From: Methyloversatilis sp. | Lineage (GTDB): Bacteria > Pseudomonadota > Gammaproteobacteria > Burkholderiales > Rhodocyclaceae | Assembly: GCA_016791045.1 (NCBI GenBank) | Contig: JAEUNO010000032.1 | Location: 158,288 to 222,287 of the forward strand | DNA length: 64,000 nt | Direction of reading: 5' to 3' | Shown here: positions 4,162 to 50,470 of the stretch, piece after piece | How positions within the stretch are numbered: position 1 is the first letter of the stretch | Layout of the letters: the number at the start of each line of letters is the position of its first letter | Notes under the pieces: generated by a model | What the model saw: only the letters and a program-made list of their open reading frames with translations | What the model was told of the DNA's origin: nothing | Database searches by the model: none | Translations under genes and position numbers: made by a program

Positions 4162-5058
4162 ATGTGGTTCAAGAACCTCCAGATCTACCGCCTCTCCACG
4201 CCGTTCATCGCCACGCCCGACCAGCTGGCTGAAAAGCTCGCTGCCCAGGCCTTCCAGCCCGGCACCAGCATCGAAATGCAGCGCATGGGCTGGGTGTCGC
4301 CGCGCAGCGATGAGTCGCTGGTGCATGCCGTCGCCGGTCAGATGATGATTGCGCTGCGGGTCGAAAAGAAGCTGCTGCCGGCGTCGGTCATCAATCAGTT
4401 CGCCAAGGCACGCGCGCAGGAGATCGAGGAGCAGCAGGGTTACAAGCCCGGCCGCAGGGAAATGCGCGAAATCAAGGACGCGGTGACCAACGAACTGCTG
4501 CCGCGCGCGTTCGCCATCGCGCGCGACACCCGGGTGTGGATCGATCCGGTGCGCAATCTGATCGTCGTCGATGCCGCCGCCAGCGCAAAGAGCGACGAAG
4601 TGATGCAGCTGCTGAACGAAAGCCTGGAAAACCTCGGCGCGCGGCCCTTGCAGACCGCGCTGTCACCGGTGTCGGCAATGACCTCCTGGCTCGCGTCCGA
4701 CGAGGCGCCCGCAGGCTTCACCGTCGACCAGGACACCGAACTGCGTTCCAGCACCCAGTCCAAGGCCACGGTGCGCTACACCCGCCATGCACTGGAAGCC
4801 GAGGACCTGCGCCGCCACATCGAAGCGGGCAAGCAATGCACGCGCCTGGCGATGACCTGGGCCGAACGGGTGTCCTTCACGCTGACCGAAACCCTGACCC
4901 TGAAGCGCATCGCGCCACTCGATGTGCTGACCGAAAAGGAAGATGGCAGCGGCGATGAAGCCGAGCGCTTCGATACCGATTTCGCGCTGATGACCGGCGA
5001 GCTTGGTCGCATGATCGATCAGCTGATCGAGACGCTGGGTGGCACCGACGCGCGTTGA
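4162..5058 (+). CDS. rdgC: Recombination-associated protein RdgC
   Basis: RdgC forms a ring-shaped dimer that binds double-stranded DNA and restrains RecA-dependent recombination. The protein is 298 residues, the family's normal size, and opens with [11 protein letters not shown], the hallmark RdgC N terminus. The charged central section ([19 protein letters not shown]) is also typical. It stands alone, divergent from parE (193-base gap) and convergent with the GGDEF/EAL gene, so it probably has its own promoter in the 3969-4161 gap. Nothing is unusual. Confidence 0.95.
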
Positions 5059-5085
5059 TCACTAGCGTATGTACCGCGCGCGGGC

Positions 5086-7800: not shown

Positions 7801-7806
7801 TCAGTT

Positions 7807-8301
7807 TCAGTGATCGACGGCAAGACCGACAAAAGCGCCATTGCCGGCACGGACAATGTCATCGCGCGACGCGGCAGCCGTGAGCGGTTTCTGGCTCCGC
7901 CCATCCTTGCCCATGCTGTAGAGGTCGTAATCGCTGTTCAGCGGCACCAGGTTCTTGTCCTTGCGCAGCTGACCTTGATTCGGGCGTGGTGTGCCGCTGA
8001 TGCGCAGGTATTGGTATGCGTTTCCCCAGGGATCGAGTGTTCCGCCAAGGCCCGCCTCGGCCAGCGTGGCCGGAAACTCGTTCGCCCTGATCACATGGCG
8101 ATCGATCGCCATCATGATGCTCGCCATGTCACTCATCGCAGCCGTTCGCTTGCTGCGTTCGACATAGGATTCATAGTTTGGAAGTGCGATCGCGACGAGC
8201 GCTCCGATGATCGCGATCACGGCAAGCAACTCGACAAGCGTGAATCCCGATATCCGATTTGGCCCCTGCACCGCCCACTCCCTTGATGAATCAGAAAACA
8301 T
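7807..8301 (-). CDS. GspG-like major pseudopilin / type IV pilin-like protein
   Basis: This 164-residue protein has a class III prepilin leader. A short hydrophilic N terminus ends in Gly19, followed by FTLVELLAVIAIIGALVAI, with the +5 glutamate used for assembly. Prepilin peptidase would cut before Phe20. The C-terminal part contains DPWGNAYQY and DLYSMGKDG, both characteristic of the GspG fold of type II secretion. No other secretion or pilus gene is nearby, so it is a stand-alone (pseudo)pilin rather than part of a visible gsp operon. The upstream start is uncertain; a GTG at codon 11 would give a 9-residue leader. It precedes the GGDEF/EAL gene by 6 bases. Confidence 0.85.
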   Translation of the reverse strand: MFSDSSREWAVQGPNRISGFTLVELLAVIAIIGALVAIALPNYESYVERSKRTAAMSDMASIMMAIDRHVIRANEFPATLAEAGLGGTLDPWGNAYQYLRISGTPRPNQGQLRKDKNLVPLNSDYDLYSMGKDGRSQKPLTAAASRDDIVRAGNGAFVGLAVDH

Positions 8302-8464
8302 GGCGGGGTCTGACGACCGACATGCGCTTGGCAGGAGGTTAACGGCTGATCGGACGGATGCCTTGAGGACTCAAAGCGCCGCAGTACGGGTGTTCGGAAA
8401 CGCCGCGTGATGCAGACGAGAAGAAAACTGAGAGAGGGAACTGCGCGGGAAACAACTTGAGGGG

Positions 8465-8541
8465 TGGGGTGGCTGATGGGACTCGAACCCACGACAACCG
8501 GAATCACAATCCGGGACTCTACCAACTGAGCTACAGCCACC
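8465..8541 (-). tRNA. tRNA-His (GTG)
   Basis: On the minus strand this reads as a complete 77-base cloverleaf with the extra 5' G (position -1) peculiar to tRNA-His. The anticodon GTG lies in loop TTGTGAT, the T-arm is GGGTTCGAGTCCC and CCA is encoded. The acceptor stem GTGGCTG pairs with CAGCCAC. Confidence 0.97.
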
Positions 8542-8596
8542 ACTTGAACGCTGATCGGGCGATCAGCGTCTGAAACTCTCGGGCCACACGTACAAC

Positions 8597-8673
8597 TGGC
8601 CTGCCCGGCAGGAATCGAACCCGCAACCTACGGCTTAGAAGGCCGTTGCTCTATCCAGTTGAGCTACGGGCAG
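8597..8673 (-). tRNA. tRNA-Arg (TCT)
   Basis: This is a 77-base cloverleaf on the minus strand. The acceptor stem CTGCCCG pairs with CGGGCAG, the anticodon loop is CTTCTAA giving anticodon TCT (AGA codons), the T-arm contains GGTTCGATTCC, and a discriminator G is followed by encoded CCA. It lies 55 bases upstream of tRNA-His in transcription order. Confidence 0.97.
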
Positions 8674-8705
8674 GTACTAAGTTACCGCGTTGCGGACCGA
8701 TGTTC

Positions 8706-8782
8706 TGGTCGGGGTGGAGGGATTCGAACCCCCGACATCTTGCTCCCAAAGCAAGCGCGCTACCGGGCTGCGCTACACCCCG
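8706..8782 (-). tRNA. tRNA-Pro (TGG)
   Basis: This is a 77-base cloverleaf on the minus strand. The acceptor CGGGGTG pairs with CACCCCG, the anticodon loop is CTTTGGG giving anticodon TGG, the T-arm contains GGTTCGAATCC, and CCA is encoded. It is first in transcription order of the three tRNA genes, which probably form one precursor. Confidence 0.97.
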
Positions 8783-8825
8783 AGAGCGCGCGATACTACC
8801 GGCGCAAAGCCGCGCGGTCAATGGC

Positions 8826-8860
8826 TGCAGGGCGGGTGGATCAAGAAAAATCCACCCTGC
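8826..8860 (-). terminator. Stem-loop after pnp, possible terminator
   Basis: Eight-base arms GGGTGGAT (8834-8841) and ATCCACCC (8850-8857) form a hairpin 14 bases after the pnp stop, extended by GCAG/CTGC. The loop is T-rich on the minus strand, but no U-run follows. It could be a 3' stabilising stem rather than a true intrinsic terminator. Confidence 0.4.
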
Positions 8861-8870
8861 CCCGCGGTCA

Positions 8871-10985
8871 TCACTCCTGCGGGTCGGTTGCTTCCGGCGC
8901 CGCGAGCAGCGCCTTCATCGACAGGCGGATGCGGCCCTTTTCGTCGGTCTCCAGCACCTTCACCTTCACCTGCTGGCCTTCCTTCAGGTGGTCGGCGACG
9001 TTGGCGATGCGCTCGTTCGCGATCTGGGAAATGTGCAGCAGACCGTCCTTGCCCGGCAGCACGCTGACGATGGCACCGAAATCGAGCAGACGCAGCACCG
9101 TGCCGTCATACACCTTGCCCACTTCGACTTCCGCCGTGATCGCCTCGATGCGGCGTTTGGCGTTTTCGGCGGCTTCGGCGCTGACCGACGCGATGGTGAT
9201 CGTGCCGTCGTCGCCGATGTCGATCGTGGCGCCGGTCTCTTCCGTCAGCGCGCGGATGACGGCGCCGCCCTTGCCGATCACGTCGCGGATCTTTTCCGGA
9301 TTGATCTTCATCGTCAGCAGGCGCGGTGCGTAGGTCGACACGCCTTCACGGGCGCCGCTCATCGATTCCTGCATGATGCCCAGGATGTGCTTGCGCGCCT
9401 CGTGCGCCTGCGCCAGCGCGACCTGCATGATTTCCTTCGTGATGCCCTGGATCTTGATGTCCATCTGCAGTGCGGTGATGCCGTTGTCGGTACCCGCCAC
9501 CTTGAAGTCCATGTCGCCCAGATGATCTTCGTCACCGAGGATGTCGGTCAGCACTGCAAAGCGGTTGCCGTCCTTGATCAGGCCCATGGCGATGCCGGCC
9601 ACGTGCGCCTTCAGCGGTACGCCGGCGTCCATCAGGGCGAGCGAGCCGCCGCACACGGAAGCCATCGACGACGAACCGTTCGATTCGGTGATTTCAGACA
9701 CCACACGCATCGAGTAGCTGAATTCGTCGGCCGGCGGCAGCACGGCGAGCAGCGCGCGCTTGGCCAGACGGCCGTGGCCGATTTCGCGACGCTTCGGCGT
9801 GCCGAAACGGCCGGCTTCGCCGGTGGCGAACGGCGGCATGTTGTAGTGGAGCATGAAGCGGTCGCGATATTCGCCGCCCAGCGCATCGATGATCTGCTCG
9901 TCACGACCGGTGCCCAGCGTGGCGATGACCAGCGCCTGCGTTTCGCCGCGGGTGAACAGCGCCGAACCGTGGGTGCGCGGCAGCACGCTGTTGCGGATGT
10001 GGATCGGACGCACGGTGCGCGTGTCGCGACCGTCGATACGCGGCTCGCCGTTCAGGATGCGGCTGCGGACGATGCGGGCTTCGATGTCGAAGAAGTAGTT
10101 CTTGATGGTGTTGACGTCCGGCGCATTGGCCGCGTCGGCGGTCAGTGCGGCAACGACTTCGTTGCGGAGCTCGTTCACGCGCTGGCTGCGCGTCTGCTTC
10201 TGCGTGATGCGGTAGGCTTCCTGCAGCTTGGCTTCGGCCAGACCGATGATGCTGTTCCACAGCGCTTCGTCACGAGCCGGTGCCTGCCAGTCCCATTCGG
10301 GCTTGCCGGCGACTTCGACCAGTTCGTTGATCGCGTTGATGGCGGCCTGCATCTGTTCGTGACCGAACACGACGGCGCCCAGCATGACCTCTTCCGACAG
10401 CTGCATCGCTTCCGATTCCACCATCAGCACTGCGGCTTCGGTTCCGGCGACGACCAGATTCAGTTCGCTGGTCTTCAGCTCGGTGGCGGTCGGGTTCAGG
10501 ATGTACTGACCGTTGGCGTAACCGACGCGTGCCGCACCGATCGGGCCGCTGAACGGGATGCCGGAAATCGACAGCGCAGCCGACGTGCCGATCATTGCCG
10601 GAATATCGGAATCGACTTCCGGATTCAGCGACAGCACCTGCACGATGACCTGCACTTCGTTGTAGAAACCTTCCGGAAACAACGGGCGGATCGGGCGATC
10701 GATCAGACGCGACGTCAGCGTTTCCTTCTCGCTCGGACGACCTTCGCGCTTGAAGAAACCACCCGGAATGCGACCGGCGGCATAGAACTTTTCGGCGTAA
10801 TCGACGGTGAGCGGAAAAAAGTCCTGCCCCGGCTTGGCCGTCTTCGAGGCCACGACAGTGGCCAGCACCACGGTTTCGTCGATGCTCACCATGACGGCAC
10901 CACCAGCCTGGCGGGCGACCTCACCGGTCTCCAGCACCACCTTCTGGTTGCCGAACATGAATTCCTTGCGGGTAGCGTTAAGCAA
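8871..10985 (-). CDS. pnp: Polyribonucleotide nucleotidyltransferase (PNPase)
   Basis: PNPase degrades RNA 3' to 5' by phosphorolysis and is part of the degradosome. The 704-residue product has the full architecture: RNase PH domain 1 (about 10-145), an all-helical linker, RNase PH domain 2 (about 310-540) with [17 protein letters not shown] and the catalytic-site [18 protein letters not shown], a KH domain ([20 protein letters not shown]) and an S1 domain ([19 protein letters not shown]). It follows rpsO across a 131-base gap containing a terminator-like hairpin, the usual arrangement for PNPase, whose expression is commonly autoregulated through its leader. Confidence 0.98.
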
Positions 10986-38075: not shown

Positions 38076-39065
38076 TCACGCTGCAGACGTATCCACCACC
38101 AGGCGGCCGCGTACCTTTCCTTCGAGGAAACGCGGCGCGACGTCGAGCACTTCATCGAGCCGCACCACCTGCGTCATGGCGTCGAGCTTGGCCATCGGCA
38201 TGTCGCGCACGATGCGCGCCCAGGCTTCTTCGCGCGGTCCGTGCGCCACGGTGACGCTGTTGATGCCGTACAGCGTGACGCCACGCAGGATGAACGGCGC
38301 GACGGTGGCCGGAAAATCCATGCCCTGGGCCAGCCCGCAGGCGGCGACCGCGCCGTTCTCGCGCGTCGCGGCGCAGGCGTTGGCCAGCGTGTGCGACCCG
38401 ACACTGTCCACGACACCGGCCCAGCGCTCGCGCGCCAGCGGCTTGCCCGGCGCCGAAAGCGTTGCGCGGTCGATGACCGATTCGGCGCCGAGCGACTTCA
38501 GGTAGTCGGTTTCGTCGAGGCGGCCGGTGCTCGCCACCACGCGATAACCCAGACTGGCCAGCAGCGCCACGGCCACCGAACCCACGCCGCCGCTGGCGCC
38601 GGTCACCAGCACTTCGCCATCGCCCGGCTTCAGGCCGTGACGCTCCAGCGCCAGCAGGCACAGCATGGCGGTGAAGCCCGCCGTGCCCACGGCCATCGCA
38701 TGTTTCGCATCGAAGCCGGTCGGCAGCGCGACCAGCCAGTCACCCTTGACCGCCGCGCGCTGCGCCAGACCGCCCCAGTGGCCTTCGCCCACGCCGAAGC
38801 CGGTCAGCACGACCTTGTCGCCGGCCTTCCAGCACGGATGGTCGCTGTGTTCGATCACACCCGCGAAATCGATGCCCGGCACCATCGGCCACTTGCGCAC
38901 GATGGGGCTGCGCCCGGTGATCGCCAGCGCATCCTTGTAGTTGAGGCTGGACCACTGCACGGCAATGCGCACATCGGCTTCGGGCAGTGCCGCGTCCTCG
39001 ATATCGCTCAGGCGGGCAATCGTCTTGCCGTCCGCGCCCTGCTCCAGCAATATGGCCTTGAACAT
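38076..39065 (-). CDS. acuI: Acrylyl-CoA reductase AcuI/YhdH-like oxidoreductase
   Basis: This 329-residue MDR-family NADPH oxidoreductase starts at the ATG at 39065 with GGAGG ten bases upstream. The Rossmann motif is VTGASGGVGSVAVALLASLGYRV, and the opening (MFKAILLE and SSLNYKDALAITG) and LGAESVIDR are those of YhdH/AcuI, which reduce acryloyl-CoA. It lacks zinc ligands. It is divergent from arsS, with a 134-base shared gap. The gene symbol is by family only. Confidence 0.85.
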   Translation of the reverse strand: MFKAILLEQGADGKTIARLSDIEDAALPEADVRIAVQWSSLNYKDALAITGRSPIVRKWPMVPGIDFAGVIEHSDHPCWKAGDKVVLTGFGVGEGHWGGLAQRAAVKGDWLVALPTGFDAKHAMAVGTAGFTAMLCLLALERHGLKPGDGEVLVTGASGGVGSVAVALLASLGYRVVASTGRLDETDYLKSLGAESVIDRATLSAPGKPLARERWAGVVDSVGSHTLANACAATRENGAVAACGLAQGMDFPATVAPFILRGVTLYGINSVTVAHGPREEAWARIVRDMPMAKLDAMTQVVRLDEVLDVAPRFLEGKVRGRLVVDTSAA

Positions 39066-39199
39066 CTTCAGTTTCCTCCGGTCATTGACGGTGTGCAGCG
39101 CGCAGGATACTCGTTGACCTGCAAAGCAGTAAGGTTGCGACGGCGACAACGGTCTTCCTCAAACTTCCTCCATCGCATTGCTTCAGGGCTCACTCACGC

Positions 39200-40162
39200 A
39201 TGCACGCCACACTGCCGCTCCTGCGAACGACCGATTTCCCGCCGCTTGCCCGCCGCCACACCGAAATCCTGCAACTGAACCTGGGCTACACCTGCAACCA
39301 GAGCTGTCTGCATTGTCACGTCAATGCCGGGCCCGGCCGCACGGAACAGATGAGTCTGGCCACGTTGCAGGTCGTGCTCGACTTCATCCGCGCGTCCGAC
39401 GTGCGTCTGATCGATCTGACCGGCGGCGCGCCGGAAATGAATCCGCACTTCCGCTGGCTGGTCGGCGAGGCGCGCAAGCTCGACGTCGCCGTGATCGACC
39501 GCTGCAACCTGACCATCCTGTCCGAACCCGGTTACGAGGGCATGGCGCGGTTTCTGGCCGACCATCAGGTGCAGGTCACCGCGTCGCTGCCCTGTTATCT
39601 CGAAGACAACGTCGACCGCCAGCGCGGCAACGGCGTGTTCGCGCGCAGCATCGCCGCACTGCAGCAGCTCAACGCGCTCGGCTATGGACAGCCTGATTCC
39701 GGGCTTGAACTGAATCTGGTGTTCAACCCGCAGGGGCCGTCGCTGCCGCCACCGCAGGCGGCACTGGAGCAGTCGTATCGCGATCACCTCGGCCGCGCAT
39801 TCGGCATCGTGTTCACCCGCCTCTACACCCTCGCCAACATGCCGATCCAGCGTTTCGGGTCGACGCTGGTATCGAAGGGGCAGTTCAACAGCTACATGCA
39901 GACCTTGCGCACCGCCCACCGCGACGACAACCTGGACAGCGTGATGTGCCGCAACCTGCTGAGCGTCGACTGGGAAGGCCATGTCTACGACTGTGACTTC
40001 AACCAGATGCTGGGTCTGCCGCTGCGCATCGATGGCCGGCCGCGTGTGCACCTGTCCGAACTGATCGGCCGCGACGTGTCGGGCACGCCCATCGTCGTCA
40101 TGGATCACTGCTACGGCTGCACCGCGGGTCAGGGCTCGTCCTGCGCCGGCGCGCTGGTCTGA
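39200..40162 (+). CDS. arsS: ArsS-type radical SAM protein (rSAM/selenodomain family)
   Basis: The 320-residue protein carries the radical SAM motif Cys32-xxx-Cys36-xx-Cys39 (CNQSCLHC) and the Cys-rich C-terminal DUF3641 domain with CYGCTAGQGSSCAG. This is the arrangement of ArsS, which transfers 5'-deoxyadenosyl onto dimethylarsenite in arsenosugar synthesis. In some relatives the C-terminal domain contains selenocysteine; here all are cysteines. The usual partner arsM (methyltransferase) is not in the window, so the actual substrate is open. It heads an eight-gene operon. Confidence 0.88.
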   Translation: MHATLPLLRTTDFPPLARRHTEILQLNLGYTCNQSCLHCHVNAGPGRTEQMSLATLQVVLDFIRASDVRLIDLTGGAPEMNPHFRWLVGEARKLDVAVIDRCNLTILSEPGYEGMARFLADHQVQVTASLPCYLEDNVDRQRGNGVFARSIAALQQLNALGYGQPDSGLELNLVFNPQGPSLPPPQAALEQSYRDHLGRAFGIVFTRLYTLANMPIQRFGSTLVSKGQFNSYMQTLRTAHRDDNLDSVMCRNLLSVDWEGHVYDCDFNQMLGLPLRIDGRPRVHLSELIGRDVSGTPIVVMDHCYGCTAGQGSSCAGALV

Positions 40163-40172
40163 AAGGCTCGCC

Positions 40173-41567
40173 ATGAATGATCCGGTGGTGTTCGGTGTCG
40201 CCTTCTGGGGCTTTCTGGTGCTGTACGGCGTCGGCATGTATGCGCTGTCGCCGCGTGCCGTCGGGCGGGCGGGCTTCTTCGACGGCCACGACGAAGCGGG
40301 TCGCCCGGCCGGCACCTGGGCGCTCGGCGCCAGCATCTTCATTTCGTGGATCTTCGCCAAGTCGATCACCAACGCGGCCAATCTCGGGGCGACCTACGGC
40401 ATCGTCGGCGGTCTGGCGTACGCGACCTACTGGCTGTCGATTCCGCTGGCTGGCTGGGCCATCCTGAGACTGCGCCGCCGCTATGGCGCCACCAGCCTGA
40501 TGTCCTTCCTGACCGGCCGGCACGGCAGGCTGGCGGCGCTGGCCTTCTCGATCGCCATCCTGGTGCGCCTGTTCAACGAGGTGTGGAGCAACACGGCGGT
40601 CGTCGGCGGCTACTACGGCCCGGCCGGATCGACCGAATTCATCGGTGCCGCACTGCTGTTCACCGCCGCCACGCTGTTCTACAGCCTGAAGGGGGGCCTG
40701 CGCTCGTCGATCTACACCGACGTGCTGCAGACCGGCCTGTTCGTGCTGTTCTTCGCCGTCGTGCTGCTGCTGGTGCTGCCGACGCACGGCCCGGTGGCGC
40801 TGGCGAGCACCGGCGATTTCCGGCTCGACGCGGGTGTCGACCTGCTTCTGGTCGCCGCGCTGCAGGTGCTGTCCTACCCTTTCCATGATCCGGTGCTGAC
40901 CGACCGCGGCTTCATCACCGAAGAAAAGCGCATGCTGCGCGCCTTCGTCTGGGCCGGCGCGCTCGGCTTCGTGTGCATCCTTCTTTTTTCGCTGGTCGGC
41001 GTGCACGCCCGGCTCGAAGGCCTGGCCGGCGGCGACAACGTGCCGGCGGCACTCGCCCGCAGCATGGGTCCGGCGGCGCTGTTCGTGATGACCATCGTCA
41101 TGGTCGCCGCCGCAGGTTCCACGCTCGACTCGACCTTCTCATCGCTGGCCCGGCATGTGGCGCAGGAACTGCCGCAACTGGCCGGACGTCCGGAACCCAG
41201 GCGGGCCATCGCGCTCGGCATGGGCGCCATGGCGCTGTTCGCGATCATCGGCAATCTGCCGATGATCGCAGGCACGGACATCCTGAAGGCGACGACCATC
41301 AGCGGCACCATGGTGATCGGGCTGGCGCCGATCTTCCTGCTGGCTGGCTTCACGCAGCCGGGCACACGGGCGGCGGTGTGGTCCTTCCATCTGGCGTTCT
41401 GGACCGGGCTCGCGCTGGGCGTGCTGCTGGCGGCCGGGCTGATTCCGGACAGCTGGGCCATCGGCACCGGGAAGTACGCCAAACTGCTGGGCGTGAATCT
41501 TTACGGACTGCTGCTCTGCACCGCGGGCTATCTGCTGCCGCCGCTGATCGCAGGGCGGATGCGATGA
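40173..41567 (+). CDS. Sodium:solute symporter family transporter
   Basis: This 464-residue inner-membrane protein with about 13 hydrophobic segments belongs to the SSS family (LeuT fold). Recognisable pieces are ASIFISWIFAKSITNAANLGA, LTGRHGRLAALAFS and YSLKGGLRSSIYTDVLQTG. The substrate is unknown; the context suggests uptake or export for the rSAM pathway. It starts 11 bases after arsS and its stop overlaps the next start (ATGA). Confidence 0.88.
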   Translation: MNDPVVFGVAFWGFLVLYGVGMYALSPRAVGRAGFFDGHDEAGRPAGTWALGASIFISWIFAKSITNAANLGATYGIVGGLAYATYWLSIPLAGWAILRLRRRYGATSLMSFLTGRHGRLAALAFSIAILVRLFNEVWSNTAVVGGYYGPAGSTEFIGAALLFTAATLFYSLKGGLRSSIYTDVLQTGLFVLFFAVVLLLVLPTHGPVALASTGDFRLDAGVDLLLVAALQVLSYPFHDPVLTDRGFITEEKRMLRAFVWAGALGFVCILLFSLVGVHARLEGLAGGDNVPAALARSMGPAALFVMTIVMVAAAGSTLDSTFSSLARHVAQELPQLAGRPEPRRAIALGMGAMALFAIIGNLPMIAGTDILKATTISGTMVIGLAPIFLLAGFTQPGTRAAVWSFHLAFWTGLALGVLLAAGLIPDSWAIGTGKYAKLLGVNLYGLLLCTAGYLLPPLIAGRMR

Positions 41568-42526
41568 ACCCCGATCTCGCCGACAGCACGGCCGACGACA
41601 GCCTCGCCGACCCGGGCCGTACGTGCCCGCTGCACTACCGCTATGGCGCGGCGGCCCTGGCCGACAACCGCGCCGACCTCGTGACCGATACGCTGTACGT
41701 CGTCGGCGGCCTGTACGGCAACCGGCCGGCGCTCGACGCGCTGGAGCACCTGTTCGCCGGCGAGCGTGGCGATGCACGCCTGATGTTCAACGGCGACTTC
41801 CACTGGTTCGACATCGACCCGGTCTGCTTCGGCGACGTGCAGCGGCGTGTGCGGGCGCATGACGCGATCGCCGGCAACGTCGAAGCCGAACTGGCCGATG
41901 GCTCGGGCGATGCCGGTTGCGGCTGCAGTTACCCGGACGACGTGCCGCAGGCGCTGGTCGACCGCTCCAACCTCATCCACGCACGGCTGTCGCGCACCGC
42001 CCGTCACGACCCGCACTGGCGCGGCGAACTGGCGGCGCTCGATTTCTGGCGCGGCGTGCGCATCGGCGATGCCCGCGTCGGCGTGGTCCATGGCGACGCC
42101 GATTCGCTGGCCGGCTGGGCCTTCGATGCCCGCGCGCTGCACGATCCTGCACATCGCGCCGGTCACCTGGAACGATTTCGACGGGCGCAGTGCGATGTAT
42201 TCGCCAGCAGCCACACCTGCCTGCCTGCGCTGAAGCGATTCGATGGCCGCGCGGTCATCAACAATGGCGCCGCCGGCATGCCCAATTTCCGCGACCGCCT
42301 GTGCGGTGTCATCAGCCGCATCGCCCTCACGCCGTCGCCGCATCCGGTGCTGTACGGCACGCGCGTCGGCGCGCTGCATGTCGATGCGCTCGCGCTCGAC
42401 TACGATCGGGCCGCCTGGCGGGCCGAATTCACCGCGCAGTGGCCCGACGGCTCCGCGGCTGCGCTGAACTACCGCGACCGCATCGACCATGGCCCGGGGT
42501 GGACGCTGGAAGAGGCCGCACCATGA
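41564..42526 (+). CDS. Metallophosphoesterase-like protein with degenerate metal site
   Basis: The 320-residue protein has a calcineurin-like phosphoesterase outline: FNGDFHWFD (motif II), AIAGNVEAEL (motif III), GVVHGDAD and ASSHTCLP. The first motif, normally DxHG, reads VVGGLYGN, so the first two metal ligands are missing. A short Cys-rich insert (Cys119-Gly-Cys121, GCGCSYPDD) follows motif III. It overlaps its neighbours by ATGA on both sides. The activity is therefore uncertain; the family is conserved in similar clusters by my recollection only. Confidence 0.72.
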   Translation: MNPDLADSTADDSLADPGRTCPLHYRYGAAALADNRADLVTDTLYVVGGLYGNRPALDALEHLFAGERGDARLMFNGDFHWFDIDPVCFGDVQRRVRAHDAIAGNVEAELADGSGDAGCGCSYPDDVPQALVDRSNLIHARLSRTARHDPHWRGELAALDFWRGVRIGDARVGVVHGDADSLAGWAFDARALHDPAHRAGHLERFRRAQCDVFASSHTCLPALKRFDGRAVINNGAAGMPNFRDRLCGVISRIALTPSPHPVLYGTRVGALHVDALALDYDRAAWRAEFTAQWPDGSAAALNYRDRIDHGPGWTLEEAAP

Positions 42527-44673
42527 ACGCGCGCAAGCTTGCCCTGCTCGGGGTGGTCGTGGCGCTGGTGGCCGCCTTCTTCATTCTCGATCTCGGCCGC
42601 TTCTTCGATCTGGCCTGGTTCAAGGCGCAGCAGCGCATGCTGACCGAACAGGTCGATGCCGCGCCCTGGGGGTCGGCCGCGGTGTTCTTCGCGATCTACG
42701 TCGTCGTGACGGCGCTGTCGCTGCCCGGTGCGGCGATCATGACGCTGGCCGGCGGCGCCCTGTTCGGTTTCGTCAAGGCGCTGGTCATCGTGTCCTTCGC
42801 GTCCAGCCTGGGCGCCTTGCTCGCCTTCCTGATCGCGCGCTTCCTGTTGCGCGACTGGGTGCAGGCGCGCTTCGGCACGGCGCTCGAGTCGATCAACCGC
42901 GGGGTCGAGAAGGACGGTGCCTTCTATCTGTTCACGCTGCGCCTGGTGCCTGCGTTTCCGTTCTTCGCGGTCAATCTGGCGATGGCGCTGACCGCGCTGC
43001 CGGCACGTACCTTCTACTGGGTGAGCCAGCTCGGCATGCTGGCCGGCACCATCGTGTTCGTGAATGCGGGCACCCAGATCGGGCGCATCGAATCGCTGTC
43101 CGGCATCCTGTCGCCCGGGCTGATCGGTGCGTTCGTGCTGCTGGGCGTGTTTCCGCTGATCGCCCGCAAGGTGATCGATGCGGTGCGCAGCCGCGCCGTG
43201 TTCAGCCGCTGGCCGAAACCGGCGCACTTCGATTACAACCTGCTGGTGATCGGCGGCGGCAGTGCCGGTCTGGTCACCGCCTACATCGGTGCCGCAGTGA
43301 AGGCGAAGGTGGCGCTGGTCGAGCAGCACAGCATGGGCGGCGACTGCCTGAACACCGGCTGCGTGCCGTCGAAGGCGCTGATCCGCTCGGCGCGGCTGCT
43401 GTCGCAGATCGCGCACTCGAAGTCGCTCGGCGTGCGCGAGGCGAGCGCGCAGTTCGATTTCGCCGATGTGATGGAGCGCGTCGCGCGCGTGGTGCGCGCG
43501 ATCGAACCGCATGATTCGGTGGACCGCTATACCGCGCTCGGTGTCGATTGCTTCGACGCGCGGGCGCGCATCACCTCGCCGTGGACGGTCGAGGTGACCC
43601 AGCACGACGGCAGCACGCGCACACTGAGCACGCGCAACATCGTCATCGCCGCCGGCGCCCGCCCCTTCGTGCCGCCGATACCCGGCATCGAGGCGATGGA
43701 TCTGCTCACCTCGGACACGCTGTGGTCGCTGCGCACCCTGCCCGGCCGTCTGCTGGTGCTCGGTGGCGGCCCGATCGGCTGCGAACTGTCGCAGGCCTTC
43801 GCGCGCTTCGGCGCCGACGTGACCCAGGTCGAAATGGCGCCGCGCCTGATGGGGCGGGAAGACCCGGATGTGTCGGCGCGGGTCGAAGCGCGTTTCGCGG
43901 AAGAAGGCGTGCGCGTGCTGACCGGCCACAAGGCGGTGCGCTTTGCGCGGGAAGGCGATCCGAAAGTGCTGTACGCCGAAGGCCCGCAGGGTGAAGTGCG
44001 CATCGAATTCGACACCCTGCTGTGCGCCGTCGGACGCACGCCCAACGTCAGCGGCTACGGTCTGGAAGAGCTGGACATCACGCTGCGCGCCAACCGGACG
44101 GTCGATACCAACGACTACCTGGAAACGCTCTACCCCAACATCTTCGCCTGCGGCGACGTGACCGGCCCGTTCCAGTTCACGCACACCGCGGCGCACCAGG
44201 CCTGGTATGCCGCGGTCAATGCCCTGTTCGGCCGCTTCCGGCGCTTTGCGGTCGATTACTCGGTCATTCCGTGGGCCACCTTCACCGAACCCGAAGTGGC
44301 ACGGGTCGGCCTGAACGAGATCGACGCGAAAGTGCGCAACATTGCGCACGAAGTGACGATCTACGAACTCGATGACCTTGATCGCGCGATCACCGACGAG
44401 GTGGCGCACGGCTTCGTCAAGGTGCTCACCGTACCCGGGCGCGACCGCATCCTCGGCGTGACCATCGTCGGCGAACACGCAGGCGAACTGATCGCCGAAT
44501 ACGTGCTGGCAATGAAGCACGGCCTCGGGCTCAACAAGCTGCTGGGCACCATCCACATCTACCCGACGATGAACGAGGCGAACAAGTTCGCCGCCGGTGT
44601 CTGGAAGAAGGCGCATGCGCCGCAGACGCTGCTCGCCTGGGTCGCGCGCTATCACGCCTGGATGCGCGGATGA
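42523..44673 (+). CDS. TVP38/TMEM64 membrane domain fused to an FAD disulfide oxidoreductase
   Basis: The 716-residue fusion has a TVP38/TMEM64 (SNARE-associated, DedA-like) domain at 1-225, with FTLRLVPAFPFFAVN as its core. A class I pyridine nucleotide-disulfide oxidoreductase follows (about 238-705): FAD motif GGGSAG, redox pair Cys275/Cys280 in GGDCLNTGCVPSK, NAD motif GGGPIGCE and active-site HIYPTMNEA. It lacks the N-terminal HMA and C-terminal vicinal cysteines of mercuric reductase. The reductase should face the cytoplasm. Its substrate is unknown. Confidence 0.9.
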   Translation: MNARKLALLGVVVALVAAFFILDLGRFFDLAWFKAQQRMLTEQVDAAPWGSAAVFFAIYVVVTALSLPGAAIMTLAGGALFGFVKALVIVSFASSLGALLAFLIARFLLRDWVQARFGTALESINRGVEKDGAFYLFTLRLVPAFPFFAVNLAMALTALPARTFYWVSQLGMLAGTIVFVNAGTQIGRIESLSGILSPGLIGAFVLLGVFPLIARKVIDAVRSRAVFSRWPKPAHFDYNLLVIGGGSAGLVTAYIGAAVKAKVALVEQHSMGGDCLNTGCVPSKALIRSARLLSQIAHSKSLGVREASAQFDFADVMERVARVVRAIEPHDSVDRYTALGVDCFDARARITSPWTVEVTQHDGSTRTLSTRNIVIAAGARPFVPPIPGIEAMDLLTSDTLWSLRTLPGRLLVLGGGPIGCELSQAFARFGADVTQVEMAPRLMGREDPDVSARVEARFAEEGVRVLTGHKAVRFAREGDPKVLYAEGPQGEVRIEFDTLLCAVGRTPNVSGYGLEELDITLRANRTVDTNDYLETLYPNIFACGDVTGPFQFTHTAAHQAWYAAVNALFGRFRRFAVDYSVIPWATFTEPEVARVGLNEIDAKVRNIAHEVTIYELDDLDRAITDEVAHGFVKVLTVPGRDRILGVTIVGEHAGELIAEYVLAMKHGLGLNKLLGTIHIYPTMNEANKFAAGVWKKAHAPQTLLAWVARYHAWMRG

Positions 44674-45356
44674 GGCGGCTGTCCGTCGTGCTGCCGGCGC
44701 TGAACGAAGCCGCGACCATCGGGGAAGCGCTGTCGCGCATGCCGGCACCCGACGTCCGCGGTCTGGAACGCATCGTCGCCGACGGCGGCAGTCTCGACGA
44801 CACCGCATCGATCGCTGCCGCGCAGGGCGCGCGCGTCGTTCGCGCACCGCGCGGCCGGGCGCTGCAGATGAACGCCGGTGCGCAGGTGGCGACCGGCGAC
44901 GTGCTGCTGTTCCTGCACGCCGATACGCAGCTGCCGCCCGACGCGTTCGCACTGATCGACCGGGCGATCGCAGCCGGTGCGCAGTGGGGGCGCTTCGACG
45001 TGCGCATCGAAGGTCGCCACCCGCTGCTCGCGGTCGTCGCCGCCATGATGAACCTGCGTTCCCGCCTGACCGGCATCGCCACCGGCGATCAGGCGATCTT
45101 CTGCACGCGCGCACTGTTCGACGCACTGGGCGGTTACGCGCCGATCGCGCTGATGGAAGACATCGACTTTTCCACCCGTGCGCGGGCGCGGTCGCGACCC
45201 GCCTGCCTGCGCGCGCGCGTCATCACGTCGGGCCGCCGCTGGGAGCGCCAGGGGGTGCTGCGTACCATCGTGCTGATGTGGCGCCTGCGCCTGCGTTACT
45301 TCTTCGGTGCCGATCCCGGCGATCTGGCGCGCGACTACCGGCCGCACCATGAGTGA
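44670..45356 (+). CDS. GT2-type glycosyltransferase, rSAM/selenodomain-associated (TIGR04283 type)
   Basis: This 228-residue GT-A fold protein opens with LSVVLPALNEAATIGEAL. It has IVADGGSLDDT and LFLHADTQLP (metal-binding acidic motif) and the conserved RFDVRIEGRHPLL and GDQAIFCTR sections of transferase 2 proteins found beside ArsS-type radical SAM genes. It is cytoplasmic. It overlaps both neighbours (4 and 8 bases). The acceptor is not known; a sugar or nucleotide-derived product of the pathway is an inference. Confidence 0.88.
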   Translation: MRRLSVVLPALNEAATIGEALSRMPAPDVRGLERIVADGGSLDDTASIAAAQGARVVRAPRGRALQMNAGAQVATGDVLLFLHADTQLPPDAFALIDRAIAAGAQWGRFDVRIEGRHPLLAVVAAMMNLRSRLTGIATGDQAIFCTRALFDALGGYAPIALMEDIDFSTRARARSRPACLRARVITSGRRWERQGVLRTIVLMWRLRLRYFFGADPGDLARDYRPHHE

Positions 45357-45981
45357 GTCCGGACTGGCGGTGCTGGTGTTCGCGCGCGCCCCCGAGGCCG
45401 GCCGCAGCAAGACGCGGCTGATGCCGCTGCTGGGCGCCGACGGCGCGGCGCGGATCGGTGCGCAACTGACCGAACGTGCGCTGCAGGTGGCCGCCGACGC
45501 GGCCATCGGCCCGGTCGAACTGTGGTGCGCACCGGACTGCAGCCATGATTTCTTCGAACGCTGTCGCGACCGGTACGGCGTGTCGCTGCACGCGCAGACC
45601 GACGGCGACATCGGTCAGCGCATGGCGCACGCCTTCGACGACGCGCTCGGTCGCCATGCGTCGGCAGTGCTGATCGGCGCCGACGCCGTATCGCTGCAAC
45701 CGGCCGACCTGCGCGCAGCGGGTGTTGCGCTGCGCAGCCACGATGCCGCGTTCGCCCCGGCCGAGGACGGCGGCTATCTGCTGGTGGGGCTGCGCATACG
45801 GCAAGCTGCCCTGTTCGACGGCATCGCATGGGGCAGTGCCGGGGTGTGGTCGCAGACCCGTGCCGTGATCGAGCGGCTCGGCCTGCTCACGCAGGTGCTC
45901 CCGACCGGTTTTGACCTCGACCGGCCGGACGACTACCGACGCGCCGTGGCCGAAGGCCTGCTGGTATCCGAACCATGCTGA
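45349..45981 (+). CDS. Nucleotide-sugar transferase-like protein, rSAM/selenodomain-associated (TIGR04282 type)
   Basis: The 210-residue product has a nucleotidyltransferase/GT-A fold: VFARAPEAGRSKTRLMPLLG opens the protein, with DGDIGQRM, IGADAVSL (usually GADSP) and APAEDGGYLLVGL downstream. These are the signatures of transferase 1 of rSAM/selenodomain clusters. The start ATG at 45349 overlaps the previous gene's end by eight bases; the stop overlaps the DUF3047 start. Confidence 0.85.
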   Translation: MSESGLAVLVFARAPEAGRSKTRLMPLLGADGAARIGAQLTERALQVAADAAIGPVELWCAPDCSHDFFERCRDRYGVSLHAQTDGDIGQRMAHAFDDALGRHASAVLIGADAVSLQPADLRAAGVALRSHDAAFAPAEDGGYLLVGLRIRQAALFDGIAWGSAGVWSQTRAVIERLGLLTQVLPTGFDLDRPDDYRRAVAEGLLVSEPC

Positions 45982-46730
45982 CCCGTCTGCGCGCGCTGCT
46001 GCTGGCCATCGCGCTGGCGCTGACCTGCGAAATGTCGGCCGCGGCGGCCGATGCCGTTGCACTGCCCGCCTTTTCCACGCAGCCCGCCGGATCGACGGTA
46101 TCGGGCTGGACGGCCTACACGCTGGGCGGCAAGGCGGCGCCGGCCGATTTCCGGCTGGCCGAGCTGGACGGCCTGACCGTGCTGCGTGTCGAAGCGTCGA
46201 ACGCCGCCTCGGCGCTGATCCACACCCGTCGCTTCGATCCGCTCGCCACGCCCTGGCTGAACTGGCGCTGGCGCGCCGACGTGCTGCCGGCCGCCGGGCG
46301 CTTCGCGACGCGGGACGGCGACGACTACGCGCTGCGCGTCTATGTGCTGTTCGATCTCGATCTGTCGAAGCTGTCGTTCGGTACGCGCACGAAAATCCGT
46401 CTGGCGCGCACCTTCTACGGCGAGCAGATTCCGACCGCCGTGCTGTGCTATGTGTGGGACACGCGCGCCGCGCCGGGCTCGCGCGCATGGAGCGCCTACA
46501 CCGACCGGGTACGCATGATCGCCGTCGACGGCGCTGGTTCGCCGACCGGCAGCTGGCGCGACGTGAGTCGCAACCTGGTCGAGGATTTCCGGGAAGCATT
46601 CGGCGAAGACCCGCCGGCCGTGACCGGCATCGTCGTGGCGAGCGACAGCGACAACACGGGCGGACAGACCCTCGGTTATTTCGGCGACCTGTCGGTCACC
46701 GCCCGGTCAGCGCCGCAGCCAACCCCATGA
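45975..46730 (+). CDS. DUF3047 periplasmic protein
   Basis: This 251-residue protein has a signal peptide (MLTRLRALLLAIALALT...AAAADA). The mature part fits DUF3047: LNWRWRADVLP, GDDYALRVYVLFDLDL and a C-terminal GIVVASDSDNTG with YFGDL. These beta-rich proteins resemble carbohydrate-binding jelly-roll folds. The function is unknown. The gene is embedded in the operon (7-base overlap upstream, ATGA downstream). Confidence 0.8.
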   Translation: MLTRLRALLLAIALALTCEMSAAAADAVALPAFSTQPAGSTVSGWTAYTLGGKAAPADFRLAELDGLTVLRVEASNAASALIHTRRFDPLATPWLNWRWRADVLPAAGRFATRDGDDYALRVYVLFDLDLSKLSFGTRTKIRLARTFYGEQIPTAVLCYVWDTRAAPGSRAWSAYTDRVRMIAVDGAGSPTGSWRDVSRNLVEDFREAFGEDPPAVTGIVVASDSDNTGGQTLGYFGDLSVTARSAPQPTP

Positions 46731-47800
46731 AACGACTTGTCCTGCTCGGCGGCGGTCACGCCCACCTATTCGTGCTGGAAGCCTTCGCGCGCGAACAACC
46801 CGACGCGGTGGTCAGCCTGATCACGCCCGATGCGCTGACGCCCTACTCCGGCATGATGCCGGGCGTCATCGCCGGCCATTACGACTACCGGCAGGCCTGC
46901 ATCGATCTCGCCCCGCTGGCAGCGCGGGCCGGCTGCGCGCTCCGGCTGGATGCCGCGGTGTCGCTGGACGCCGGGCAGCGGCAGATCCGGCTGGCCAGCG
47001 GCGAGCTGATCGACTACGACATGCTGTCGATCGACACCGGTTCGACGCCGCGCATCCCCGATCTGCCGGGTGCCGACAGCCGCGCGCATCCGGTGAAACC
47101 GATCGGTCAACTGCTCGAACGCTGGCATACCGCGCGCGCCGCGCGCGCTGCCGCAGTCGTCGGCGCCGGGGCCGCCGGCGTCGAAATCATCATGGCGCTG
47201 CATCACCGGCAACCGCTGATGCGCTGTACCTTGATCGACCGCGCGCCGCATATCCTCGACGGGCTGCCGGCGGGGCTGCAACGGCGTGTGATGGCCGAAC
47301 TGGCGCGCCAGCAGATCGACGTGGTGACCGAGGCGAGCGTGTCCGGTGTCGAGGCCGACGCCGTGCGGCTGGCTGACGGACGCAGCATTCCGAGTCATTT
47401 CACGGTGTGGGCCACCGGCGCCGCCGCACCACGCTGGCTGCGCGACTGCGGGCTGGCACTCGACCCCGGCGGTTTCATCGCGACCGGCCCGACGCTGCAG
47501 TCGCTGTCGCACCCCGAAGTGTTCGCCGCCGGTGATGTCGCGACGATGATCGATTCGCCGCGCCCGAAGTCCGGCGTATTCGCCGTGCGCGCCGGTCCGC
47601 CGCTGGCCGCCAACCTGCTGCGCGCCGCGCGCGGCGACACGCTGCAGCCCTGGACACCGCAGACGCGCGCCCTGCTGCTGCTCGCCTGCGGCCGCCGCCA
47701 CGCCATCGCCTCACGCGGCGGCTGGTCGCTGCAGGGAGACTGGGTATGGCGCTGGAAGGACCGCATCGACCGCGCGTTCATGCGCCGTTTCAGCGGCTAG
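46727..47800 (+). CDS. NAD(P)/FAD oxidoreductase of the SelD-associated family
   Basis: The 357-residue flavoprotein opens with LVLLGGGHAHLFVLEAF, the signature of the family that often precedes or is fused to selenophosphate synthetase SelD. Downstream are LTPYSGMMPGVIAGHYDY, VVGAGAAGVEI and FAAGDVATM. It has no redox CxxxxC and probably acts like a quinone-type oxidoreductase. No selD follows here. Its ATG overlaps the DUF3047 stop. It is the last gene of the arsS operon, followed by a long inverted repeat. Confidence 0.85.
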   Translation: MKRLVLLGGGHAHLFVLEAFAREQPDAVVSLITPDALTPYSGMMPGVIAGHYDYRQACIDLAPLAARAGCALRLDAAVSLDAGQRQIRLASGELIDYDMLSIDTGSTPRIPDLPGADSRAHPVKPIGQLLERWHTARAARAAAVVGAGAAGVEIIMALHHRQPLMRCTLIDRAPHILDGLPAGLQRRVMAELARQQIDVVTEASVSGVEADAVRLADGRSIPSHFTVWATGAAAPRWLRDCGLALDPGGFIATGPTLQSLSHPEVFAAGDVATMIDSPRPKSGVFAVRAGPPLAANLLRAARGDTLQPWTPQTRALLLLACGRRHAIASRGGWSLQGDWVWRWKDRIDRAFMRRFSG

Positions 47801-47818
47801 CGGCAGATTCAAGTTGCA

Positions 47819-47874
47819 AGATGCAAGATTCAAGGAACGACCTCCTTGCATCTTTCATCTTGAATCTTGCATCT
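47819..47874. repeat. 16-bp perfect inverted repeat between convergent genes
   Basis: Arm AGATGCAAGATTCAAG (47819-47834) is exactly repeated in reverse complement at 47859-47874, with a 24-base loop. The right arm ends on the stop codon of the minus-strand ABC gene. Partial copies of the arm (GATTCAAG, TTGCAA, TTGCATCTT) lie within and beside it. It can form a terminator-like hairpin for both strands but has no T-run. It may be a dispersed repeat element. Confidence 0.75.
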
Positions 47875-48563
47875 CAAACCATCCTGCCGGCGGCGAGGCG
47901 GATGCGGCGCGTGCAGCGCGATGCGAGCGCTTCGTCGTGTGTCACCAGGATCAGCGTGGTGCCTTGTTCGGCATTCATGGCGAACATCAGGTCGATGACC
48001 GACGCGCCGGTTGCGGCGTCGAGATTGCCGGTCGGTTCATCGGCCAGCAGCAATCCGGGTTCGGGCGCGAAGGCGCGCGCCAGCGCGACCCGCTGCTGTT
48101 CGCCGCCGGACAGCTGGCGCGGGTAGTGCGTCATCCGCCCGCCCAGGCCGACCCGTTCCAGCAGTGCCACCGAGCGCTCGCGCACCCGGTCGACGCCGGC
48201 CAGTTCGAGCGGCAGCATGACGTTTTCGAGCGCGGTCAGCGCCGGCAGAAGCTGGAAGGACTGGAACACGAAGCCGACCTTTTCGCCGCGCAGCTGGGCC
48301 CGGGCGTCTTCGTCGAGCGCAAAGATGTCCTGCCCGGCGATGCTGACCGAGCCGGCAGACGGCAGGTCGAGCCCGGCCAGAAGACCGAGCAAGGTCGATT
48401 TTCCTGAACCGCTGGCGCCGACGATGGCCAAAGCTTCGCCGGCACGAACCGTGAAGGCGATATCCTGAAGAATCTGCAGCGGCGCGTTCCCGCTGCTCAC
48501 CTGCTTGCCCAGCCCGATGACTTCAAGGACGGTCGGGCGTGTTTCCGGAGTGTCTGTAGGCAT
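47874..48563 (-). CDS. ybbA: ABC transporter ATP-binding protein (YbbA/LolD type)
   Basis: The 229-residue ATPase has Walker A GASGSGKSTLLGLL, Q-loop VFQSFQLLP, signature LSGGEQQRVALARAF, Walker B LLLADEPTGNLD and H-loop VTHDEALA, as in MacB/LolD/YbbA. Divergence from tesA matches the E. coli tesA-ybbA layout, hence YbbA. Its usual permease (ybbP) does not follow within the window. The start at 48563 overlaps the tesA ATG; an alternative ATG 10 codons upstream would enter tesA. Confidence 0.85.
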   Translation of the reverse strand: MPTDTPETRPTVLEVIGLGKQVSSGNAPLQILQDIAFTVRAGEALAIVGASGSGKSTLLGLLAGLDLPSAGSVSIAGQDIFALDEDARAQLRGEKVGFVFQSFQLLPALTALENVMLPLELAGVDRVRERSVALLERVGLGGRMTHYPRQLSGGEQQRVALARAFAPEPGLLLADEPTGNLDAATGASVIDLMFAMNAEQGTTLILVTHDEALASRCTRRIRLAAGRMV

Positions 48564-49351: not shown

Positions 49352-50470
49352 ATGAGCGACGCTCCCACACTCCGGCGACCGGCAGGAATGGCGTCGATCC
49401 GTCAGTTGCACGACTTCGACGCCCTCATCGATACCCGTTCGCCAGCCGAATTCGCGCTCGACCATGTGCCCGGCGCAATCAACTGCCCGGCACTCGACGA
49501 CGCGCAGCGCGCGGAAATCGGCACGTTGTACAAACAGGTGTCGCCGTTCGTCGCCAAGCGGCGCGGTGCGGCGCTGGTTGCACTGAACATCGGCCGCCAC
49601 CTGCTGGAAACCTTCCACGACAAGGGGCCGGGCTGGCGTCCGCTGATCTACTGCTGGCGGGGCGGCAAGCGCAGCGGTGCCTTCGTCACCGTGCTCCGCC
49701 AGATCGGCTGGGACGCGCATCAGCTCGAAGGCGGCTACAAGCGCTACCGTCGCGATGTGCTCGACCGGCTCGCCGCAGCCCCCGCCCAGCTCGATTTCCG
49801 CGTATTGAGCGGACCGACCGGCAGCGCCAAGAGCCGGGTGCTCGAACGGCTGGCGGCACGTGGCGAACAGGTGCTCGATCTGGAGGCGCTGGCTGCGCAC
49901 AAGGGATCGGTACTGGGCCGACAGCCCGGTCAGCCGCAACCGCCGCAGCGCTGGTTCGAATCGCAGCTGCATGCGGTGCTGGCGACCTTCGATCCGGCGC
50001 GTCCGGTGTTCACCGAAGCGGAAAGCCGGCGCATCGGCCTGGTTTCGCTGCCGAACGAACTGATCGAACGCATGCGGGCGGCGCCCTGCCTGCGCATCGA
50101 TGCTTCGGTGGCCGCCCGTACGGACTTCCTGCTGCGCGACTACGACTACCTCACGAGCGATGCCGAGGCGCTGATTGGCGAGCTCGAACGGCTGACCGAT
50201 CTGCGCGGACACGACACGATCGGCACCTGGTCGGCGCTGGCGCGCGCCGGCGACTGGCGCACGCTGGTTGCAGCGTTGCTGGAGCAGCACTACGACCCGC
50301 TGTACCGACGATCGCAGCAGTACAACTTTGCACGCCACCCGAATGCGCCCACCTTTGAGGCCGACCGGCTCGACGCAGCAGGCATCGATGCGCTGGCGGC
50401 ACGCATCATCCGGGCTACCGCTCAGGGCACTTTCGACGACGTGTCGGCGCACACCGCACAGATGCGCTGA
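49352..50470 (+). CDS. selU: tRNA 2-selenouridine synthase
   Basis: SelU (MnmH) replaces sulfur by selenium in wobble 2-thiouridine of tRNAs using selenophosphate. The 372-residue product has a rhodanese domain with catalytic Cys101 in LIYCWRGGKRSG and a P-loop domain (about 150-345) whose motif is GPTGSAKS, with Ala where Gly is usual. The start at 49352 (MSDAPTLRRP) fits. selD is not in the window. The 3' end overlaps the convergent methyltransferase gene by 49 bases. Confidence 0.93.
   Translation: MSDAPTLRRPAGMASIRQLHDFDALIDTRSPAEFALDHVPGAINCPALDDAQRAEIGTLYKQVSPFVAKRRGAALVALNIGRHLLETFHDKGPGWRPLIYCWRGGKRSGAFVTVLRQIGWDAHQLEGGYKRYRRDVLDRLAAAPAQLDFRVLSGPTGSAKSRVLERLAARGEQVLDLEALAAHKGSVLGRQPGQPQPPQRWFESQLHAVLATFDPARPVFTEAESRRIGLVSLPNELIERMRAAPCLRIDASVAARTDFLLRDYDYLTSDAEALIGELERLTDLRGHDTIGTWSALARAGDWRTLVAALLEQHYDPLYRRSQQYNFARHPNAPTFEADRLDAAGIDALAARIIRATAQGTFDDVSAHTAQMR

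Follow-up and report, generated by a model that had tools for sequence, protein, structure and literature searches.

What does a radical S-adenosylmethionine (SAM) enzyme of the ArsS type make in a bacterium whose genome yields no ArsM, the enzyme that methylates arsenic? This question is raised by a window of 64,000 nucleotides from Methyloversatilis sp. (assembly GCA_016791045.1, contig JAEUNO010000032.1, positions 158,288 to 222,287 of the forward strand; the window is this whole stretch, and positions below are counted from its first letter). Between 39200 and 47800, on the + strand, eight genes form an operon that opens with an arsS-like gene. Arsenosugars rank among the main organic forms of arsenic in algae and seafood, and to our knowledge none of the steps that follow ArsS is known. 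We propose, at a probability of roughly 0.45, that the operon encodes a form of the bacterial arsenosugar pathway that does without an ArsM of its own and draws on methylarsenicals made elsewhere. The eight genes are as follows:

39200..40162, +, arsS-like radical SAM enzyme (TIGR04167, 451 bits against a cut-off of 300, profile positions 2-303 of 303; DUF3641 C-terminus)
40173..41567, +, SSS-family transporter (Pfam SSF, 37.7 bits against a gathering score of 22.8, residues 42-201 only)
41564..42526, +, metallophosphoesterase-fold protein, here called PE (altered metal site, four invariant cysteines)
42523..44673, +, VTT (TVP38/DedA-type) membrane domain fused to a reductase of the MerA/lipoamide dehydrogenase-like, flavin adenine dinucleotide-dependent kind (VTT_dom 74, Pyr_redox_2 203 and Pyr_redox_dim 93 bits)
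44670..45356, +, family 2 glycosyltransferase TIGR04283 (267 bits, cut-off 182)
45349..45981, +, CofC-like nucleotidyltransferase TIGR04282 (DUF2064; 182 bits, cut-off 134)
45975..46730, +, DUF3047 protein (217 bits, cut-off 27)
46727..47800, +, flavoprotein TIGR03169 "Nterm_to_SelD", unfused (gene 8; 400 bits, cut-off 310)

All eight genes start with ATG and run in frame with no internal stops. The spacings at their junctions are, in gene order, +10, -4, -4, -4, -8, -7 and -4 bases, four of the seven being 4-base overlaps. An earlier note on this DNA, made from the letters alone, had described an eight-gene overlapping operon, which was borne out by the common strand, the tight spacings and the intact frames. 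The same eight genes are clustered, with ArsS first, in the closest named relative by ArsS, Methyloversatilis sp. XJ19-49 (L105, 98% identity), as well as in L104 (ArsS 81%) and L126 (66%). Therefore, the packing is conserved, and the order that the note had proposed to compare with other genomes does recur. Its two rSAM/selenodomain-associated transferases were also recovered, TIGR04283 and TIGR04282 both scoring above curated cut-offs. Its SelD-type flavoprotein is not SelD itself but carries TIGR03169, a domain found ahead of SelD in fusion proteins.

The note had further called the operon one without arsM, and indeed no ArsM was found in the operon or in the genome (G000; 3.54 Mb, 47 contigs, 92% complete). 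The best of its 25 candidates, all of which were scored, reached 52 bits against a cut-off of 263, and profile A2, built from 20 ArsM genes near ArsS, gave no match at E 1e-20. The near relative L105 likewise gave none at E 1e-20, with 29 of 29 candidates scored. More broadly, ArsS is common in this large bacterial order in genomes where ArsM was not detected: among 200 genomes of the order, 65 have ArsS, and 48 of these 65 gave no ArsM match (E 1e-20, at most nine candidates scored per genome). At this limit ArsM was found in 22 of the 200 genomes, 17 of them ArsS genomes. Fifty-seven of the 65 have a completeness of 90% or more and a contamination of no more than 5%. The organism may of course methylate arsenic itself, through an ArsM encoded in the 8% that the assembly lacks or through an unrecognised methyltransferase, in which case we would be dealing with an ordinary arsenosugar operon and some extra genes. 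The incompleteness of the genome, the presence of weak methyltransferase matches (52 bits at best) and the frequent lack of linkage between ArsM and arsS, the former lying in the ArsS flanks in 31 of 66 ArsM-positive rows, all agree with such an explanation. Nevertheless, the result in L105 and the 48 genomes of the order, in a set of mostly near-complete assemblies, argue the other way, and we consider self-methylation unlikely.

Across the class, ArsS keeps company with ArsM. In a sample of 369 genomes, ArsS (best E below 1e-60) was present in 183, of which 180 were over the cut-off, and ArsM (profile A2, E 1e-30, 144 genomes) was found in 125 of these against 19 of the 186 others (p 2e-32), an association that may be inflated by the origin of profile A2 in ArsM genes near ArsS. 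The 58 ArsS genomes left without ArsM may be an overcount, at most five candidates having been scored per genome. In the subset G000-G158 (159 genomes, one per family among the rows listed), ArsM was found in 56 of 85 genomes with ArsS and 8 of 74 without (p 5.5e-13). SelD (E 1e-50, 87 genomes) shows no such association, being present in 46 of the 183 ArsS genomes and 41 of the 186 others (p 0.54), and in 21 of 85 and 15 of 74 in the subset. Since ArsS tracks ArsM and not SelD, arsenic is the better reading of the element involved, and selenium as the main element of the ArsS core was rejected on this co-occurrence test, with some contrary signals that are given below.

The enzyme itself looks like its ArsM-linked relatives. 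We compared 141 ArsS loci, namely the window, 60 loci hand-picked from the best-scoring listed matches and 80 of 593 confirmed, named ones; they represent 136 distinct ArsS rows, so that some genomes enter twice, and many are cut short by contig ends, 94 having 8 kb on both sides. One locus, L181, holds a PE fragment at its end; it was taken as PE-negative in the neighbourhood counts, the local PE/ArsM comparison and the tree, and as PE-positive in the 50-genome ArsM search, the tree-based pair test and the comparison of ArsS columns. Ten ArsS cysteines, including those of the radical SAM motif CxxxCxxC and those of the C-terminus, are conserved in at least 140 of the 141 homologues: C32, C36, C39, C250, C265, C304 and C307 are found in 141, and C315 in 140. 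Between 26 PE-linked and 39 ArsM-linked sequences, only one column, the loosely conserved position 21, shows a difference of more than half. Mapping the PE label onto the ArsS tree takes 14 changes, of which starred branches force at least eight, and rows with PE and rows with ArsM are interspersed there. Because the columns hardly differ and the two kinds of rows mix, the chemistry of ArsS is probably unchanged in the PE-linked forms, as judged from sequence. Excerpts of the literature describe a radical SAM enzyme that adenosylates arsenic in the formation of oxo-arsenosugars (PMC12159101), and SsArsS as acting together with SsArsM in the first arsenosugar steps (PMC8552651).

One could also imagine that ArsS acts directly on inorganic arsenite or on some other soft element and yields a novel methyl-free product, adenosylated or linked to a sugar. 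Most ArsS genomes of the order have no ArsM match, and ArsL, a radical SAM enzyme that transfers a different part of SAM than ArsS does, uses inorganic As(III) according to the excerpted text of PMC8552651. A change of substrate is, however, difficult to reconcile with PE-linked and ArsM-linked enzymes that show no clear sequence difference and intermingle in the tree, and we hold it to be rather improbable.

The earlier note had left the product between an arsenosugar and a selenium-containing sugar. The first is favoured by the co-occurrence of ArsS and ArsM, although the window's genome yielded no ArsM; the second is disfavoured for the core, as ArsS is independent of SelD and the SenA and SenB genes lie elsewhere. 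The selD, senA and senB genes that the note proposed to look for are all present in the genome as part of a selenoneine cluster apart from the operon; there, on another contig, selD is accompanied by SenB (428 bits, cut-off 300), SenA (506, cut-off 420) and EgtD (358, cut-off 291), in the arrangement senA-senB-selD-egtD (L005, positions 4558-8935; contig 35 of G000). A gene for the tRNA 2-selenouridine synthase MnmH lies in the window itself (49352-50470, +, start estimated; 486 bits, cut-off 266), about 1.5 kb downstream of the operon, and selA gave no match in the genome. Because mnmH and the separate selenoneine cluster are both present, SelD already has two known uses in this genome. The operon contains no SelD domain, SenA or SenB, and gene 8 matches solely the domain N-terminal to SelD.

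The operon might still belong to a selenium pathway, making a selenium-containing sugar or using selenophosphate. Selenium genes are found close by: selD follows the eight-gene operon in L104, at the place matching mnmH of the window, and SenB together with a flavoprotein-SelD fusion lies near arsS in L094 (422-5260, also with a SenA-like gene) and L166 (17367-20656). The fusion of SelD to the gene-8 domain, as recognised by the length of the open frame, is more frequent with ArsS (28 of 183 genomes against 10 of 186, p 0.002; 13 of 85 against 4 of 74 in G000-G158, p 0.07). On the other hand, 137 of the 183 ArsS genomes are without SelD and so are three of the 25 PE genomes. SelD does not differ significantly between PE-positive and PE-negative genomes (22 of 25 against 10 of 15, the latter being those searched among 25; p 0.13), and the selenoneine genes and mnmH already give SelD its use, gene 8 being free of a SelD domain. 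We find a selenium product very unlikely. A looser link between arsenic and selenium, suggested by the neighbours in some relatives, is possible; in L126, for instance, EgtD-EgtB lies upstream of the operon.

The genes flanking ArsS were grouped into families by MCL, as Louvain communities had split ArsS itself. In the fetched flanks of the 141 loci, we counted TIGR04282-like genes 92 times, TIGR04283-like 87, TVP38-reductase 60, ArsM 39, PE 25, DUF3047 20, the gene-8 flavoprotein 15, SSS 12, ArsR 11 and MTAP 9, and a family that we take to be DUF547 was present in 15. Thus, ArsS with TIGR04283 and TIGR04282 is the commonest set, and the remaining genes are variable. The single pathway suggested in the earlier note is supported by the recurrence of this set and by the restriction of SSS and PE to ArsS genomes among the 200. 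The independent occurrence of genes that would speak against it was seen in part: the glycosyltransferase, CofC-like, TVP38-reductase, DUF3047 and flavoprotein genes vary around ArsS, whereas SSS and the phosphoesterase-like gene were seen only with ArsS.

The last two families are therefore singled out. PE (profile A3, E 1e-20, at most 11 candidates scored per genome) is present in 32 of the 65 ArsS genomes of the order and in none of the 135 others (p 3e-19). In 23 of these 32 genomes the PE and ArsS genes are no more than 10 kb apart; in one they share a contig at a distance of 468 kb, and in eight PE sits on a different contig, in some cases perhaps only because of a contig break. The SSS subfamily (E 1e-60) is present in five of the 200 genomes, always directly between ArsS and PE, and all 12 SSS genes of the 141 loci adjoin PE, a reductase standing between ArsS and SSS in L140.

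PE of the window matched no Pfam or NCBIfam family at E 0.001, and its best Pfam hint, Metallophos_2 (E 0.023), is also seen in 13 of 24 members. Its AlphaFold2 model (predicted local distance difference test score, pLDDT, 92.8) was closest in Foldseek to SapH (3qfm, E 2.3e-10), the top matches being SapH-type hydrolases of diadenosine tetraphosphate (Ap4A) and their kin. The description of this protein as phosphoesterase-like was thus right as to the predicted calcineurin-like metallophosphoesterase fold and did not extend to the metal site. The usual metal motifs, which we take to be DxH, GDxxD, GNHE and GHxH, are not kept: PE has GxY and GDxxW (25 of 25 homologues each), GNVE (23) or GNIE (2), and HTC (23) or HSC (2) in their places. 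C21, C119, C121, C219, D78, N105, H176 and H217 are invariant in all 25 homologues; D78, N105, H176 and H217 were matched by eye to the presumed motifs of the SapH-type enzymes, and the four cysteines set PE apart from them. These cysteines may form a metalloid site.

PE was also considered as a replacement of ArsM. Locally, ArsM is present at none of the 25 PE loci and at 39 of the 116 other loci (p 1.5e-4). In 50 hand-picked genomes, 25 with and 25 without PE, ArsM at E 1e-20 was found in 4 of 25 and 18 of 25, respectively (p 1.5e-4), and in 1 of 25 and 17 of 25 at E 1e-36 (p 3e-6), this stricter limit having been chosen after the results had been viewed. The replacement was rejected, as the exclusion was not significant within the order and the informative tree pairs were too few; the exclusion is at least partly a lineage effect.

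On these grounds, a sequence of steps can be sketched for the proposed arsenosugar pathway. As the genome yielded no ArsM, other microbes or algae would make the methylated arsenical, which the cell would take up; membrane transport of the arsenical, or of the arsenosugar, would fall to the SSS protein. The VTT-reductase fusion, the flavoprotein, or both, would reduce pentavalent forms for ArsS. ArsS would then, following its chemistry in the literature, join the 5'-deoxyadenosyl group of SAM to the trivalent methylated arsenical. An MTAP-type phosphorylase, encoded no more than 200 bases from arsS in 6 of the 141 loci (five on the same strand, two being near-copies), would remove adenine and leave 5-arseno-ribose 1-phosphate. 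To judge from families and neighbours, the CofC-like enzyme (solved homologue 3cgx, E 5e-18) would activate this compound, and the TIGR04283 enzyme (nearest solved chains: glucosyl-3-phosphoglycerate synthases, E 2e-7) would transfer the activated sugar to some small acceptor molecule, for example a derivative of glycerol or glycerate. The cysteine-rich PE would handle a thiol-reactive arsenical or a phosphorylated intermediate.

The same genes could be read in the opposite direction, as an operon that degrades or recycles algal arsenosugars imported by the SSS protein and dismantled by the other enzymes. SSS proteins are mostly importers, and the nearest solved chain here is the sugar cotransporter SGLT1 (E 1.7e-6). 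PE has a hydrolase fold, and DUF3047 bears some resemblance to carbohydrate-binding folds. The AlphaFold2 model of the latter (pLDDT 86) has a helical hydrophobic N-terminus and a predicted beta-sandwich, and its structure search gave a general beta-sandwich match only: ciliary and flagellar chains fill the first six Foldseek rows, with a glucuronyl C5-epimerase at rank 7 and CBM4 modules from rank 28 on. However, ArsS is an enzyme that forms bonds according to the literature, and it looks unchanged here, while a glycosyltransferase and a nucleotidyltransferase are better suited to synthesis. Degradation thus appears to us highly doubtful.

Several points weigh against the arsenosugar pathway as proposed, in addition to the possible inflation of the ArsS-ArsM association and the possible overcount of ArsM-less genomes given above. 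Arsenic itself is an element that we infer. No gene for the uptake of methylarsenicals was identified, SSS being a candidate only. SelD is more frequent in ArsM-less ArsS genomes (22 of 58) than in those with ArsM (24 of 125; p 0.01), it is found in 22 of the 25 PE genomes, and selenium genes adjoin some ArsS operons, although these adjacencies stand without a control set. Within the order, the mutual exclusion of PE and ArsM falls short of significance, both at the strict limit (ArsM in 2 of 32 PE-positive and 6 of 33 PE-negative genomes, p 0.26) and at E 1e-20 (6 of 32 and 11 of 33). The tree-based pair test was not significant either: among 107 of the 141 rows (30 had no genome-wide ArsM search, and L106, L111, L117 and L132, with weak ArsM matches, were left out), it gave eight pairs, of which about two were opposite, none the same and six without difference. 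A wider proposal, that an ArsM-independent arsenosugar branch is widespread in Betaproteobacteria, with uptake of methylarsenicals from other organisms, through a dedicated SSS transporter in certain lineages, capture or processing of the arsenical intermediate by PE at a former metal site turned cysteine site, and in some lineages a tie to selenoneine and selenophosphate genes that would hint at a joint metabolism of arsenic and selenium, seems to us doubtful as a whole.

Among known systems, the closest is the ArsM and ArsS pathway of Synechocystis, as described in excerpts of PMC8552651 and PMC12159101. The ArsS family is over its cut-off and keeps its cysteines in the operon too, and TIGR04283 and TIGR04282 carry an arsenosugar label at NCBI. 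The operon differs in that no ArsM was found in it or its genome, in its additional SSS transporter and PE, and in being known from genes alone. The arsinothricin cluster arsQML of Burkholderia gladioli (PMC8552651, excerpted text) likewise combines a radical SAM enzyme and a transporter for an organoarsenical product; it differs in that arsinothricin needs ArsM and in that its transporter is of the GntP type, against the SSS type here. The selenoneine cluster senA-senB-selD is part of the same genome and comes near ArsS loci in L094 and L166, where the gene-8 domain is fused to SelD, whereas in the window SenA, SenB and SelD are outside the operon. A name-based literature search found no publication on such an operon, and the nameless PE could not be targeted by it. 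The operon provides candidate genes for the steps after ArsS. Since Methyloversatilis can be cultured, the missing steps are open to testing.

At its downstream end, the operon is separated from a convergent ABC-transporter gene by one further feature:

47805..47874, strand not applicable, inverted repeat with 32-base arms (84% complementary), built of a near-repeated motif

This repeat is possibly the transcription end of the operon. Seven terminator-like matches were found against 4.3 in shuffled sequences, one of them (47831-47848) inside the repeat, and a sigma-70-type promoter scan of 38900-48100 gave no match (0.5 in shuffles). A similar sequence lies 3' of the operon in L105, and none in L104.

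Two other families were observed in the ArsS flanks. A membrane hydroxylase (cluster c8; OlsE match of 97 bits, below the cut-off of 475) is present in 19 of the 141 loci, among them L058, L060, L063, L064, L070, L071, L073, L082 and L086, and several hydroxylase loci also have an ArsR-type regulator with a rhodanese-like C-terminus. A lipid step, as in arsenolipids, is possible for this enzyme. Also, a PiT/sulfate-permease-like gene, with matches below cut-off, is found in seven of the 141 loci (L053, L074, L098, L109, L116, L130 and L167) and stands directly upstream of arsS in five; it could be a route for arsenate or phosphate.

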